The notes: generated from the letters alone by a model not told the origin. 64,000 nucleotides of DNA from Brachyspira hampsonii 30446 (GCF_000316195.1 NZ_JH994110.1:698537-762536); one strand, 5' to 3'. Counted from the first letter of the stretch, positions 173 through 11,685 are shown. Translations and numbers: made by a program.

Positions 173-1306
173 ATGGAACTCAATAAAAATATACTTCAAG
201 TGCCGTATTCGCTCATAAGAGAGCTTACAGAAAAAGCACAAAGTAAAGAAAATGCTATAATGCTTACAATAGGGGAGCCGGATTTACAGCCTCCTAAAGA
301 GTTTATTGATTATGCCTGTGAGTTCGCTAAAACTCATAGATTGGGCTATACTCATTCCGGAGGAAGCGAGCATTTAAGAGGATTAGTTGCTAATCATTAT
401 AATAAATACTATGGCTCAGATATTAAAGCTGATAATGTTACTATGCATATTGGTTCTATGGAGGGTATTTCTTCTGTATTTAGAACTATACTTAATATTG
501 ATGATGAGGTTATAATACCTACTCCTTTTTTCTCTCCTTATGAACAGGCGGTAAAACTTTCTTATGGTAAATGTGTATTTTTAGATACTAGGGCAGATCA
601 TCTTGTAATTAAGCCTGAAGCGATAGACAAGGTTATAACAAATAAAACTAAGGCTATACTTTTCAGTAATCCTGGTAATCCTTCTGGATATATGCTTAAA
701 AAAGAAGAGATGGATGAGCTTGTTAAATATTTTGAGAAAAAAGATATATTTATAATAGCCGATGAGATATATTCTGCTATATCATTTTATCCTTTTACTT
801 CATTTGCTTCTTATCCTTCTATAAAAGATAAAGTAATAGTGCTTAATGGTTTTTCAAAATCCCATTCTATGACAGGATGGAGAATAGGTTACAGTATTTC
901 TCCTGAATATGTGAGAAAATGTTTAGTTAATGCCAGCTTTAATAATGTTGGAAGTATGGTTACTGTTTCTTGTGCACTTGCTGAGTTTGCTTTAGAGAAA
1001 TATCCTATGATAGAAGAGTTTAGGGATATATATAAAGAGAGGGCTTTCTTTTTATCTAAAGAGTTAACTGATATGGGATTTGATGTAATAGAACCTAGGG
1101 GAGCTTTTTATTTGTTTGTAGGATATGAGAAATTTTCTAAAGAGCCTTCTTTTGATTTTGCTATAAGATTATTAGATGAAACAGGTGTTGCTGTAGTGCC
1201 TGGAATTGCTTTCGGAAGTGAGAATTATTTTAGAATAGCTTTAACTCAGGATATACCTATATTAAAAGAAGCTGCTAAAAAAATAAGAGAATTCGTACAT
1301 AAATAG
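173..1306 (+). CDS. Pyridoxal-phosphate aminotransferase, class I/II fold
   Basis: A 377-residue fold-type I aminotransferase that transfers an amino group between an amino acid and a 2-oxo acid in the cytoplasm. The PLP-lysine motif is visible as NGFSKSHSMTGWRIGY, with the substrate-contact SNPGNPSGYM and ADEIYS motifs before it, in the usual family order. Length is normal. An in-frame ATG exists 60 nt upstream, but GGAG at 162-165 lies 7 nt from the ATG at 173 and the residues before it are not family-like, so I start at 173. It stands alone, with its own promoter and a hairpin behind it. Substrate cannot be told from sequence; aspartate or aromatic amino acids are the usual options for this subgroup. 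Confidence 0.9.
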   Translation: MELNKNILQVPYSLIRELTEKAQSKENAIMLTIGEPDLQPPKEFIDYACEFAKTHRLGYTHSGGSEHLRGLVANHYNKYYGSDIKADNVTMHIGSMEGISSVFRTILNIDDEVIIPTPFFSPYEQAVKLSYGKCVFLDTRADHLVIKPEAIDKVITNKTKAILFSNPGNPSGYMLKKEEMDELVKYFEKKDIFIIADEIYSAISFYPFTSFASYPSIKDKVIVLNGFSKSHSMTGWRIGYSISPEYVRKCLVNASFNNVGSMVTVSCALAEFALEKYPMIEEFRDIYKERAFFLSKELTDMGFDVIEPRGAFYLFVGYEKFSKEPSFDFAIRLLDETGVAVVPGIAFGSENYFRIALTQDIPILKEAAKKIREFVHK

Positions 1307-1366: not shown

Positions 1367-3136
1367 TTAATTATCAAAAAATATATTTATAACAGCATTC
1401 GCATTTATTATACTTATAGGTCTTATATAATATTTAGTTTTTTCTAATACTATGAATCTGTTTTTGTCTACATTTGAATTTTTATAATTCATGATATATT
1501 TGATTCCATTTGAGTGAATTGATGTGTATTTTATATTTAAAGTTAATCTTTCTTCTTCGTCTTCTTTATATTTATTTATGATATCAAAATAAAGCATTTG
1601 TTTTATTTTATCAAACTCTTGATTTTCTATTATTTGAAATTCTGCTATTATTATTTTTGACATATCATTCTTATTGAAATAATCATATCTAAAATCTATA
1701 TTTTTTATATCATTATAGGTTTCTGCAAATAGCTCTTCATTATTTTTTGACTCTTTTATATCTTTTAATAATGTATAATTAATTCTATCATTTAATATAA
1801 CTGAAGTAAATTTACTTGATGATATTCTCTCTTCATTGTTAACTTTATAATTTATGAATTTTAATTTATATTTTGAAATTTCTTCTATAGAGATATTATT
1901 TTCAAAATGAATTTTCTTTCTGTAATTGCTTCTTACATCATCATAAGAAATTTTAGCATTATCATAAAATGTAGGTATAACATAAGAAAAGAATGATAAT
2001 TTTTTAGTATTTAAATTATATAGATAAGCACTTGCTCCTAAATATCCTGTAGAAGAAATCCAAGGATAAGCACCTAAGCCCGCTAATTCTCCGCTTTTTC
2101 TATTTATATATTTGCTTCTTATTTCTCCTGTAAGAAGTTTTACCGTTTTATTATCATTATTTTGCTTTGCTTTTTCTATATTTTTTATTGTATTATAAAG
2201 TCTTGAAAGTGAGGCAAAAGCAAATAATTTATTAAATGAAGCATGTTTATTTATCATAGAGTTAATACTCTCAGCAATACTTCTAAATATTTTTGCTAAT
2301 TCCGGCATATTTTTTACTTGAAGTTTTATACTTATTTGTTCTGCAATATCAAAATCTTTTTCACTGCATGAATAGAATCCTTTTTCAAAAATATTTTCAA
2401 TATAATCTTTTGCAAATTTTAAAATATTTTCATCTATTACTTTATCTTCTTCTTTTATATCCTCCAAAGTTCCGTACATCTCTTTGTATTTTAATATAGC
2501 TATTATCTTATGAGCACAAAGTGAAGAGTCTTTGCATGAACATACTGCCTTTTTTATGCTGTCTTTTTTAGGAAAATATATAATTGTATTTTCTTCTGGA
2601 ATATTAATTTCAAGCATAGCATCTTCTTTAATCTCTGCTTCAATATTTTCATAAAACCTATCTAATGCATATTCAAAATTTCTTTTAGTGCTTAATTTCC
2701 TAATTTCATCGAAACTTATATTTTTGACTTCATCAAATGTATTATTTATTGTATTAATATTTGTTTTTTCTGTCTCTTTTGTTTCTTCTGTATTATTATC
2801 TGCTGTATCTTTATTGTTTTCATTTTCTTTATTTTCTGTATCTAAATGTTCTATATATAAAAGCGACATTATAATATGTTTGCAAATATCTTTTGAAGGA
2901 CATGTGCATTTGCTTGATTTTATATCCTCATCATTAAGTATTACTTCTATTTTATCACCTGTATCTATTGTAACTTTTATTTTATCATCGGCTTCTTCTA
3001 GCTTTATTTTTTCAGGGCTATTATTTATAATATTATCAATGTCTTTTACTGATCTGTTATATATGCCTTTATTTGTGAGAGTAAGGAGAAATTTTTCATT
3101 TACATATTGTTTTAAATTGTTAATTTTTTCATTCAT
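1367..3136 (-). CDS. Protein with two SWIM zinc fingers
   Basis: This 589-residue protein has two clear SWIM motifs of the form CxC-x5-CxH. The first is C77, C79, C85, H87 and the second is C199, C201, C207, H209. They are joined by a low-complexity, Asn/Glu/Thr-rich linker at about 100-135. The ~380-residue remainder is lysine- and asparagine-rich with no fold I recognise. SWIM fingers bind DNA or protein and in bacteria often accompany SNF2-type helicases, but none is nearby. The gene starts 15 nt after the Toprim gene stops and has no promoter I can see between, so it may be the third gene of that operon. No signal peptide or membrane segment is visible. The family assignment is firm; the role is unknown. 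Confidence 0.8.
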   Translation of the reverse strand: MNEKINNLKQYVNEKFLLTLTNKGIYNRSVKDIDNIINNSPEKIKLEEADDKIKVTIDTGDKIEVILNDEDIKSSKCTCPSKDICKHIIMSLLYIEHLDTENKENENNKDTADNNTEETKETEKTNINTINNTFDEVKNISFDEIRKLSTKRNFEYALDRFYENIEAEIKEDAMLEINIPEENTIIYFPKKDSIKKAVCSCKDSSLCAHKIIAILKYKEMYGTLEDIKEEDKVIDENILKFAKDYIENIFEKGFYSCSEKDFDIAEQISIKLQVKNMPELAKIFRSIAESINSMINKHASFNKLFAFASLSRLYNTIKNIEKAKQNNDNKTVKLLTGEIRSKYINRKSGELAGLGAYPWISSTGYLGASAYLYNLNTKKLSFFSYVIPTFYDNAKISYDDVRSNYRKKIHFENNISIEEISKYKLKFINYKVNNEERISSSKFTSVILNDRINYTLLKDIKESKNNEELFAETYNDIKNIDFRYDYFNKNDMSKIIIAEFQIIENQEFDKIKQMLYFDIINKYKEDEEERLTLNIKYTSIHSNGIKYIMNYKNSNVDKNRFIVLEKTKYYIRPISIINANAVINIFFDN

Positions 3137-3151
3137 TTTATAAACCTATTT

Positions 3152-3817
3152 TTATTTGAACATATTATTTAAAAAATCAATTAAATCATATAATACATTT
3201 GAATCCAAATAATGAGAGCATTCCTGAAATAACCCTCCTACTGTATTTCTCTTTTTGCATCTTACCGATATAAAAGCAAGTATTTTAGCTTTTAATAAAT
3301 GGGCTTCATTACTGCCTTGATTAATATAATTATCAGCACAGTTAAAAAAATTATTAACGCAGTCATTATATAAGTCTTTATCATTTTCTAAAATTATTTT
3401 TTCTACTAAATGTTCTAAATATCCAGAAGTTTTATCATCTGTTTTGGCTGTTATAAATAAGCCTTTATAATCATCATAATAAATATTGTTGTTTTGATTA
3501 TATTCGCATTTTATAATATCATTAAAAATATTAAATCTTTTTTGAGCATTACTTTCAGCATCAACTACAATTGCAAGTTTTTCTATATTACTGTAGTTGG
3601 AAGTTTTTATAAATGAAGAAATATGATTTTTATTATCAGCTTCATTGATTGTTATTATTTGAATAGTGTTATCATCTTCTATAAAAGTTTTATCATATTT
3701 ACCTATTATGCATTTTAATCCTAATTTTTTATTAATTAAAAGAGAGCATAAATCTCTCTCATCATTTCCTTCAACAAGAAGAACTTTTTTAGCCATAGGA
3801 TTCATTTTATTTTCCAT
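3152..3817 (-). CDS. DUF3226-type Toprim-fold protein, partner of the upstream ATPase
   Basis: A 221-residue protein opening with KKVLLVEGNDE, where E16 and G17 form the Toprim glutamate motif. A second acidic motif, VVDAESN, carries D86 and E88 where Toprim enzymes usually have DxD. The C-terminal half resembles DUF3226 proteins. Toprim domains use metal-bound acidic residues to cut or join nucleic acid. The ribosome-binding site GGGAGG lies inside the end of the upstream ATPase gene and only 6 nt separate the two, so translation is probably coupled. An ATPase-Toprim pair recalls OLD nucleases and PARIS defence systems. That link is inference, and the DxE variant leaves it open whether this copy is catalytic. 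Confidence 0.75.
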   Translation of the reverse strand: MENKMNPMAKKVLLVEGNDERDLCSLLINKKLGLKCIIGKYDKTFIEDDNTIQIITINEADNKNHISSFIKTSNYSNIEKLAIVVDAESNAQKRFNIFNDIIKCEYNQNNNIYYDDYKGLFITAKTDDKTSGYLEHLVEKIILENDKDLYNDCVNNFFNCADNYINQGSNEAHLLKAKILAFISVRCKKRNTVGGLFQECSHYLDSNVLYDLIDFLNNMFK

Positions 3818-3823
3818 TATTTT

Positions 3824-4891
3824 TTATCTTACCTCCCAATTATCCATAGCATTATTTAATTCTTCATTGTTATATATTATAGCTTGATATTTATACTTTT
3901 CTTTTTTGTCAGCTTCTATTCTTATGCCTTGAATATCATCATTTGAGTTGTATTCATTTTTTACCTCATTATAAACATCATTAAAAGCCTTTATACATTC
4001 ATAAGAGTGAGTAGTTGCAAAAAGCTGAACATTATTTTTATAGCATACTTTAAATAGAGATAGCCATAAATTCCTTAAAGCACTATGATGAAACCCATTA
4101 TCGATTTCATCAATAAGCATAACTCCATTTGCAATAAATGGTATACTTACTATGTAATTGAATATTTTTAATATACCGCTTCCCAATGCATTTATTGGTA
4201 AATATCTGTCAAGCCCAATATCAGCTTCACAGATTTGTTCAGATGATATTCTTATTGATTCTATATTTGGTATTATAGCTTTTAAAGTCTCTACAACTAT
4301 TTTATCCATTTTTAAATTTTGAAGTTTATCAAATGATGAAACAACATTATTTTTTACTCTTGTTTCTGAAGTACTGTAATCATTAAAGAAATAAAAGTTA
4401 AATAATGAAGGAGCTAAAATTGCTGAGCGTATATTTATATTGTTAATAGGAAAATTATTATTAATAGGTATAAAACTATTATCTATCTGTCTGTTATCAT
4501 TTATAATCATTGGAAGTTTTATAGTTTCTCCATTATTATTTTTTACTTGATAATAAATACCATCTAAAGTTGCAAGCTCTAATGATTTTATAGGGTATAT
4601 ATTTAATTCTCTTTTATAAGTTTTTATATTAATAGGATTAGTATAATCAAAATTATAAAAAATTAACTCCAAATTATTATTTATAGGTATATTCCTTTGA
4701 AAAAAAGAAGAAGATATAACTGTATCGCTTCTAAACATATTTGAGTATAAATATAATGCCTCTAAAAGATTGCTTTTTCCAACACTGTTTTTACCGAATA
4801 TTAAATTGAACCTTTTAAAACTGTCAATAGAAAATTCTTTGAAGCATTTAAAATTACTTATACTAATATTTGGTATTTGAATATCACTCAT
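3824..4891 (-). CDS. AAA/ABC-class ATPase of the AAA15/AAA21 (OLD-like) type
   Basis: A 355-residue RecF/SMC-like ATPase. Walker A is GKNSVGKS (33-40), a signature-like LGSGIL is at 235-240, Walker B is VMLIDE (256-261) followed by IDNGFHH, and the switch histidine is in ATTHS (H294). The large insert between Walker A and the signature is typical of this class. It is the first gene of a likely three-gene unit, driven by a good promoter at 4933-4961, and its last codons carry the ribosome-binding site of the Toprim gene. Such ATPases sense or gate paired nucleases in several phage-defence systems. That function is inferred from gene pairing, not shown. Confidence 0.85.
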   Translation of the reverse strand: MSDIQIPNISISNFKCFKEFSIDSFKRFNLIFGKNSVGKSNLLEALYLYSNMFRSDTVISSSFFQRNIPINNNLELIFYNFDYTNPINIKTYKRELNIYPIKSLELATLDGIYYQVKNNNGETIKLPMIINDNRQIDNSFIPINNNFPINNINIRSAILAPSLFNFYFFNDYSTSETRVKNNVVSSFDKLQNLKMDKIVVETLKAIIPNIESIRISSEQICEADIGLDRYLPINALGSGILKIFNYIVSIPFIANGVMLIDEIDNGFHHSALRNLWLSLFKVCYKNNVQLFATTHSYECIKAFNDVYNEVKNEYNSNDDIQGIRIEADKKEKYKYQAIIYNNEELNNAMDNWEVR

Positions 4892-4932
4892 AATTTTTAT
4901 TCCGTTTTTTATTTATATTTGATAGCATAAAA

Positions 4933-4961
4933 ATAATATATTAAAATAAATATCTTGTCAA
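4933..4961 (-). promoter_or_regulatory. Promoter of the ATPase-Toprim-SWIM operon
   Basis: Read on the minus strand, TTGACA (4961-4956) and TATTAT (4938-4933) are 17 bp apart. The start point would fall near 4926, about 35 nt before the ATPase ATG. No comparable promoter is visible before the next two genes. Confidence 0.65.
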
Positions 4962-4985
4962 AGATTAAAAATAATACAAATAAAA

Positions 4986-5013
4986 AAGAGCATACATAAA
5001 AATGCATACTCTT
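4986..5013 (-). terminator. Intrinsic terminator of the yajC-secD-secF operon
   Basis: A 12-bp stem (4986-4997 with 5002-5013, two G-U pairs) with a 4-nt loop is followed on the minus strand by a U-rich tract complementary to the A run at 4982-4987. It lies just after the secF stop. Confidence 0.8.
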
Positions 5014-5036
5014 TTATTTTTATATTTAGTAATTTG

Positions 5037-5960
5037 TTAATCTTTTTTAGTTTTCATAAATAATATTAAAAGACCGCTTGCTATAAAGTTACTAGCATAA
5101 GTACCTATAACAACACCGCAGAAGAATGTAAAAGCAAAATCATAAAGTATGAAGCCTCCCCATATCATTATGGCTAATGCGGCAAGAAGTGTAGATATAC
5201 TAGTTATTACTGTTCTTCCTACAACATTGTTCAAACTTATATTAACAATCTCTTTAAATGGTTTTTTAGTGTCAGTATTCTCTCTTATTCTGTCAAATAC
5301 TACTATGATATCGTTAATAGTGTAACCTATTAAAGTAAGCATTGATGAGAGAACTAAGACAGAAAACTCTTTATTTAGAAAAAGAAGTATGCCGAATACT
5401 ATGACAACATTATGTATAAGTGTAATTATAGCAGGGAAAGCGTATCTGTAATTAAATCTTATAGTAATGTATATCATTATGATAACCCAAGAAACTATTA
5501 TAAGTATGAATGCCAGCTTCAAATTATCAGAAGATACAACACCGCTTATGATATTGCTTCCTATAAGTGTAACTTTTTCCTGAGTGTATTTGTCATAAAG
5601 CACCTGCATAGCTCTGTCAGATTCTTCATTAGATCCTCTGAATCTTAAAAGGAAAGCATTTACATTGTCTGCCCCTTCAAGTTCCTGAATATTAACAGTT
5701 TCCGTTCCGAAATTATTGTATAAAGCTCTTATTTCAGCAATATTAATTACTTCAGGATTATTTATCTGTACTTTTAATTCAACACCGCCTGCAAAGTCAA
5801 TACCCATATTAAAACTGTTTGTGGTAAGTTTATTTACAAACAATGCAATAGAAGCTATGAATAATATAGATGATATCACAGCAGCTATTGGCATAATTTT
5901 AACAAATGGTATCTTGTTTTTTGTTAAATCATTATTTTCTTTTTTTATATCTTCACTCAT
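5037..5960 (-). CDS. secF: Protein translocase subunit SecF
   Basis: SecF, 307 residues, forms an inner-membrane complex with SecD and YajC that uses the ion gradient to finish export through SecYEG. One membrane helix near the N terminus is followed by the hallmark GIDFAGGVELKVQI. A small periplasmic domain and five more helices come next. The motifs LIGYTINDIIVVFDRIRE and GRTVITSISTLLA belong to the SecD/F RND-type family. Length is normal. It lies 36 nt after secD on the same strand and is the last gene of yajC-secD-secF, ahead of a terminator. Confidence 0.97.
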   Translation of the reverse strand: MSEDIKKENNDLTKNKIPFVKIMPIAAVISSILFIASIALFVNKLTTNSFNMGIDFAGGVELKVQINNPEVINIAEIRALYNNFGTETVNIQELEGADNVNAFLLRFRGSNEESDRAMQVLYDKYTQEKVTLIGSNIISGVVSSDNLKLAFILIIVSWVIIMIYITIRFNYRYAFPAIITLIHNVVIVFGILLFLNKEFSVLVLSSMLTLIGYTINDIIVVFDRIRENTDTKKPFKEIVNISLNNVVGRTVITSISTLLAALAIMIWGGFILYDFAFTFFCGVVIGTYASNFIASGLLILFMKTKKD

Positions 5961-11055: not shown

Positions 11056-11685
11056 ATGGATAAAGTTAATTTCTACATAGACGGATTTAATATATATCAT
11101 GCCATTGATAGATTAAATAATAATAAGTTAAAATGGATAAACTATTATGATTTATGTAAAAGTTTATTAAAAGATAATGAGATAATAAATAAAGTATATT
11201 ACTTTTCAGCATATGCTTTTTGGAAACCATATAGTCAAAATAAGCATTATATATTTATACAAGCACTTAAATATTTTAATGTAGAAGTAGTTCTAGGTAA
11301 TTTTAAAAAGAAAAGTAAAAATTTAATTATAAAAGATAATAATGGTAATATAATAAAATATAATTATGAATATCATGAAGAAAAAGAAAGTGATGTAAAT
11401 ATAGCTATATATTTAGTAAGGGATGCATGTAATAGAAATTGTGATAAAGCTATATTGTTATCTGGAGATAGTGATTTAGTACCTGCTATAAAAATGGCAA
11501 AAGAAGAGAATGCCGACTTAAAAGTAGGAGTTGTTGTTCCGCCTAATGTTCAGGCAAGCAGTTTAAAAAATATTTCTGATTTTGATATAAAATTATTAAA
11601 AATTGATATATCTTCTTTTTTACTCCCCAATTCTATTAAATTAGAAACAGGGCATACAATAATTTGTCCTAAAGATTGGCAGTAA
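11056..11685 (+). CDS. NYN-domain protein, probable ribonuclease
   Basis: A 209-residue NYN (LabA-like, PIN-fold) protein. The N-terminal NFYIDGFNIYHA carries the first catalytic Asp and Asn. SDVNIAIYLVRDA supplies a second acidic site, and KAILLSGDSDLVPAIK the third. The following KVGVVVPP is also typical. The family is expected to be metal-dependent RNases, but the substrate here is unknown. The ATG directly follows a terminator hairpin, without a normal Shine-Dalgarno sequence, so expression is probably low or conditional. The start is secure because the conserved motif begins five residues in. tRNA-Leu lies 90 nt downstream on the same strand. Confidence 0.88.
   Translation: MDKVNFYIDGFNIYHAIDRLNNNKLKWINYYDLCKSLLKDNEIINKVYYFSAYAFWKPYSQNKHYIFIQALKYFNVEVVLGNFKKKSKNLIIKDNNGNIIKYNYEYHEEKESDVNIAIYLVRDACNRNCDKAILLSGDSDLVPAIKMAKEENADLKVGVVVPPNVQASSLKNISDFDIKLLKIDISSFLLPNSIKLETGHTIICPKDWQ

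Follow-up and report, generated by a model that had tools for sequence, protein, structure and literature searches.

The adjacent ATPase and Toprim genes of Brachyspira hampsonii 30446 described here form a mobile two-gene unit, whose members evolve together, retain conserved ATPase and nuclease motifs and include a Toprim protein with a predicted OLD-like fold. With a probability of roughly three in four, we consider the pair to be an OLD-like module of the AbiLi/PDC-M38 kind, with a putative role in ATPase-controlled, nuclease-mediated abortive infection. The genes lie in a 64,000-nucleotide stretch of DNA, referred to below as the window, for which an initial annotation had proposed a candidate defence module of three genes, the third encoding a double-SWIM protein. 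The ATPase-Toprim pair does look like such a module; the grouping of three genes is not supported.

Locus organization and distribution in the genus

The three genes were found at the places initially assigned to them, and their minus-strand ORF coordinates confirm the gaps of 6 nt between the ATPase and Toprim genes and of 15 nt between the Toprim and SWIM genes. The features of the locus are collected in Table 1.

Table 1. Features of the ATPase-Toprim locus and its flanks, in window coordinates
Feature	Position	Strand	Remarks
Class I/II aminotransferase gene	176..1306	+	Convergent flank, travels with the SWIM gene
Double-SWIM protein gene	1367..3136	-	589 aa; core neighbour, outside the module
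DUF3226 Toprim gene	3152..3817	-	221 aa; predicted two-metal nuclease effector
ATPase gene	3824..4891	-	355 aa; OLD/AbiLi/PDC-M38A-type ABC ATPase
Hypervariable ATPase segment, about residues 120-218	4238..4534	-	From dN/dS and identity windows
Promoter of the pair, TTGACA-17-TATTAT	4933..4961	-	11/12 consensus positions
Terminator-like hairpin, 3' of secF	4984..5015	-	Left border of the variable slot
secF	5037..5960	-	Conserved flank upstream of the variable slot

A good promoter had also been reported ahead of the ATPase gene, and this was borne out: the element listed in Table 1 is the top-scoring promoter match in the region, and TTGACA...TATTAT is kept 5' of the ATPase gene in orthologues, including pairs at other loci (in the G021 orthologue the -35 box is cut off by the contig end). 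Promoter-like sites as a class were not enriched in this A+T-rich DNA (37 vs. 34.2 in shuffled sequences); we regard the promoter of the pair as real because the same element accompanies the ATPase gene to other loci. The immediate surroundings of the pair consist of housekeeping genes, with no defence island. No Rfam RNA was found near the module, and a retron-like non-coding RNA is therefore not indicated. Elsewhere in the window, at positions 11056-11685, a gene for an NYN-domain (PIN-like nuclease) protein lies immediately upstream of a tRNA-Leu gene.

For the survey of the genus, 26 genomes, one per species, were each searched with all three proteins. The SWIM gene was present in every genome (26/26), and an ATPase orthologue in 12/26, with 70-92% identity in the other genomes. 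Both genes of the pair are intact in nine genomes (G000, G005, G008, G009, G011, G013, G015, G021 and G023), and in three more a full-length ATPase gene is accompanied by a broken Toprim gene, which is split by a frameshift in G018, reduced to a 45-residue remnant in G014 and represented in G002 by a short open frame that retains only both ends. The pair is absent from the remaining 14 genomes, three of which (G003, G020 and G024) are incomplete, so that absence is less certain there.

The position of the pair, whose variability the initial annotation had asked to be tested, also proved variable, and is not fixed at one core locus across the 26 genomes. It lies immediately 5' of the SWIM gene in 8 of the 12 ATPase-bearing genomes and apart from it in four (G002, G011, G013 and G018). 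The pair of G002 and G018 is situated 3' of secF and is followed by an opposite-strand gene read as hypoxanthine phosphoribosyltransferase, while the SWIM gene occupies another place and retains its aminotransferase neighbour. The pair adjoins purF (identified by reading) in G013 and, in G011 (L097 9381-12256), an integrase-core (rve) transposase gene and an N6/N4 DNA methylase gene; the methylase and a further downstream ORF possibly constitute a restriction-modification system. The secF-SWIM junction lacks the pair in six genomes (G004, G006, G007, G017, G022 and G025), and G017 carries a deletion scar at which the promoter and the first nine ATPase codons are fused to the SWIM leader.

In G007 (L088 3110-4510) the secF-SWIM slot is filled by another long gene in place of the pair, possibly a glycosyltransferase gene by eye, which may make it a small hotspot for insertions. 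A G+C-rich stretch, CCGTGCGGGTTGGTGGTGCGGCTCGCAC, lies behind secF in A+T-rich surroundings (L083 6700-7030, also L077 and L084); it is repeat-like and conserved in several species, both with and without the pair.

Shared history of the pair and the place of the SWIM gene

Mantel tests gave a correlation of r 0.79 between ATPase and Toprim (p 0.0002; 0.66 in the main clade), of r 0.97 between secDF and SWIM (0.84 in the main clade) and of r 0.45 between secDF and ATPase (0.09 in the main clade). Identities between individual genomes follow the same division. G009 and G023 share 87.4% nt identity in secDF, 96.8% nt in the ATPase gene and 97.7% aa in Toprim, and the ATPase genes of G002-G014 (96.6%) and G005-G015 (97.0%) are likewise closer than their secDF (89.6% and 87.6%, respectively). 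The reverse case is seen for G008-G023, with 95.1% in secDF, 97.4% aa in SWIM and only 83.4% nt in the ATPase gene, and for G011-G013, with 93.3%, 93.7% and 81.7%. To judge from these identities, alleles of the pair have crossed species boundaries, in conflict with the core phylogeny. G023 carries a G008-like SWIM gene and a G009-like pair on one contig, which makes a mixed assembly unlikely, though this genome is fragmented. Together, the Mantel values and the identity pattern indicate that the evolving unit is the ATPase with the Toprim, and that SWIM belongs to the core.

Relatives of the pair at other loci lead to the same division. An adjacent ATPase gene was found at 30/30 DUF3226 loci fetched from the phylum, among which SWIM occurred only at orthologues of the secF-SWIM site. 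The contigs of species genomes were also scanned with the narrow Toprim alignment A2, since the family-wide A1 was too diverse. The DUF3226 loci so obtained (in Spirochaetes, Treponema, Thiomargarita, Desantisbacteria and others) had an adjacent ATPase gene in 19/19 cases and a SWIM motif in none. Apart from the site orthologues, SWIM thus stands beside the pair at none of the 49 relative loci, an outcome that the initial annotation had named as counting against its proposal.

Further copies were observed in the genome from which the window derives. A second intact ATPase-DUF3226 pair without SWIM (L112, G000 C4 about 1820875-1822465) adjoins a putative replication-initiator-like ORF. A third pair (L006, G000 C3 about 1057579-1059181), one side of which reads as purine-synthesis genes, has an intact Toprim gene and an ATPase gene split in two frames, by real decay or sequencing error; with this opposite break, loss of Toprim over ATPase is not one-sided everywhere. 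A lone divergent ATPase gene of the same type is found at L002 (G000 C4 293405-294382), with no Toprim gene in the stretch read.

A tblastn search of plasmids with the window Toprim gave no match. With a spirochaete relative as the query, 143 plasmid records matched, 136 of them from Klebsiella, the matches being small, enterobacterial and mostly Klebsiella plasmids. On one inspected plasmid of 4.7 kb the ATPase gene overlaps the DUF3226 gene, beside replication genes. L103 (NZ_LR890187.1) and similar records are 4-5 kb ColRNAI-type Klebsiella plasmids with the pair, replication genes and little else.

The SWIM protein itself contains two SWIM fingers (Pfam SWIM 1.5e-9, in two stretches). It matched no PADLOC model, gave no informative match against PDB sequences and, in a search of 296 phylum genomes, showed a single weak relative from outside the genus. 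The 15-nt spacing and the common promoter in this genome, together with the location of the pair directly ahead of SWIM in 8/12 ATPase-bearing genomes, would fit a three-gene defence operon in which SWIM binds DNA or RNA and either recruits the ATPase-Toprim complex or regulates it. We consider such an operon very unlikely. SWIM is found in all 26 genomes, 14 of them without the pair; where it stands apart from the pair it has its own promoter; it tracks secDF, which the pair does not; it is present at no other pair locus; and its adjacency to the pair can be explained by a single relocation event. Its novelty as a third component, put forward in the initial annotation, is therefore not supported, and SWIM is a core neighbour gene that follows secDF. 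Equally improbable in our view is that the pair is PARIS-like, with a trigger of its own recognized through a hypervariable segment and a DUF3226 nuclease, and that SWIM was captured in one clade as a co-expressed regulator.

Protein families, catalytic residues and variable segment

The ATPase matched Pfam AAA_21 (8.6e-20) and AAA_15 (1.7e-15), and its motifs, Walker A GKNSVGKS (residues 33-40), LIDEIDNGFH and ATTHSYE, are conserved in 12/12 orthologues. Searches against PADLOC models, in which matches were judged on E-values and not on PADLOC's own cut-offs, gave similar values for AbiLi (PDLC02336, 6.6e-51, residues 7-351/355) and PDC-M38A (PDLC04611, 2.8e-48, residues 8-355/355) and a weaker match to the AriA models (7.1e-25). 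The Toprim protein is, as first annotated, a DUF3226 (9.5e-18) and not a DUF4435 member; OLD-like_TOPRIM also appeared, below its cut-off, and PDC-M38B (PDLC04623) was matched at 2.6e-11 over residues 8-221 (profile 1-219/219). Neither DUF4435 nor AriB matched the Toprim at E<=1 in the Pfam and PADLOC scans. A Klebsiella pair and a spirochaete pair gave the same PADLOC picture as the window pair.

By these matches, the pair has the sequence features of PDC-M38, a PADLOC candidate for which no functional data were found in the literature searched: both genes match at full length, are adjacent and stand in the order A-B, although the E-value of the B gene places it in a divergent branch. The ATPase type is common with AbiL of Lactococcus (AbiLi/AbiLii), which is likewise a two-gene operon and confers abortive infection, as is proposed for the window pair; however, the window Toprim matched no AbiLii model at E<=1, in a library that may lack one. 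PARIS (AriA/AriB) also has separate ATPase and Toprim genes, but the DUF3226 partner, with no match to DUF4435 or AriB, rules out a PARIS identity. OLD (BpOLD and XccOLD) resembles the pair in the Toprim fold and in the catalytic E, DxE/D, E, K arrangement. Unlike in OLD classes 1-3, the ATPase and Toprim are separate ORFs and not fused, which rules out a classical OLD identity, and no helicase or retron gene lies beside the pair.

The catalytic set of the Toprim consists of E16, D19/E20, D86-x-E88, E135 and K176. By motif order and spacing, and not by residue-by-residue superposition, these correspond to the reference residues E400, E404, D455/D457, E508 and K562 of the BpOLD Toprim (PMC6755086). 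Alignments of DUF3226 relatives show no variation at E16, D86, E135 and K176 and hardly any at D19/E20; at position 88 both D and E occur, and in rare cases N. The DxE reported in place of DxD is indeed present (D86-A-E88, the second D of the OLD motif being E), but it is not exceptional, since 10/14 relatives in alignment A3 share it. Since most members of this branch have DxE, we do not take it as a sign that the Toprim is inactive or special.

An alignment-based model of the Toprim (pLDDT 80.5) replaced a poor single-sequence model (pLDDT 56.8). Foldseek alone gave no match to the Toprim model at E <= 0.001. A second structural aligner returned as the best match archaeal PH0156 (PDB 2p62; Z 12.7, 193 residues aligned), an uncharacterised protein with 14% identity, and matched the Toprim regions of BpOLD and XccOLD at Z 8.8-9.7, with 9.7 for BpOLD. 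AriB was not in the match list, which is uninformative either way. In catalytic set as in predicted fold, the Toprim matches the OLD nuclease domain.

Median dN/dS was 0.06 for secD and secF, 0.17 for SWIM, 0.25 for ATPase and 0.24 for Toprim, so that the value of the pair (about 0.25) exceeds that of the core genes and stays below 1. Within the ATPase, windows over approximately residues 120-218 gave dN/dS of 0.39-0.59 and amino acid identities of 42-60%, whereas windows towards either end had about 0.07-0.2 and 78-92%. A middle segment in contact with a partner that keeps changing would be expected to vary in this way, which is a pattern and not a proof, and we propose this hypervariable segment as the surface that senses the trigger.

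Proposed mode of action and its alternatives

The most likely putative function of the pair is abortive infection, controlled by the ATPase and mediated by the nuclease. The ABC-type ATPase would oligomerise and bind the DUF3226 Toprim, holding it inactive or correctly loaded, and would detect a phage product, probably by way of its hypervariable middle segment. The Toprim, as a two-metal nuclease, would then cut an essential nucleic acid, either tRNA, as AriB does, or DNA, as OLD does, and growth would stop before the phage matures; SWIM would merely be co-transcribed with the pair. AriB of PARIS, a Toprim protein and partner of the ATPase sensor AriA, cuts tRNA (PMC12409363), and toxicity in E. 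coli of an AbiLii homologue (PMC3985639) also fits this reading. Presence and absence, changes of position, allele exchange, AbiLi/PDC-M38 homologues and carriage on small plasmids make the pair defence-like, and the three Toprim losses beside an intact ATPase (G002, G014 and G018) are expected of a costly effector. Points against it are the housekeeping surroundings, a dN/dS of the pair below 1, the opposite break in the third pair and a literature that, as searched, contained no phage assay of DUF3226 systems.

Carriage on small plasmids with little besides the pair and replication genes, as well as the toxicity of an AbiLii homologue in E. coli (PMC3985639), could also be accounted for if the two genes were a selfish toxin-antitoxin (addiction) pair that acts on phage only secondarily. 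We regard this as unlikely: the pair is freely lost, leaving a scar, and the ATPase is retained after loss of Toprim, with no sign of strong addiction; moreover, the mechanism overlaps with that of abortive infection.

A housekeeping pair for DNA repair or nucleic-acid processing, RecF/RNase M5-like and with no defence role, appears quite unlikely to us. The ATPase is weakly similar to RecF and SMC, the Toprim fold is common to repair and RNA-processing enzymes, the neighbourhood is one of housekeeping genes, and a cell-cycle role is reported for Cran1, an OLD family ATPase of archaea (PMC12796447). Yet the pair is missing in 14/26 species and has repeatedly decayed, and it is exchanged between species, multi-copy and plasmid-borne.

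As the locus illustrates, a tidy operon can arise when a mobile module lands before a core gene, and operon spacing alone is therefore weak evidence for a common function. The uncharacterised Toprim family DUF3226 is now tied to a well-defined two-gene unit, the gain, loss and allele exchange of which are clear within a spirochaete genus, and the alleles found in nature single out one part of the ATPase as a possible reader of the phage trigger.
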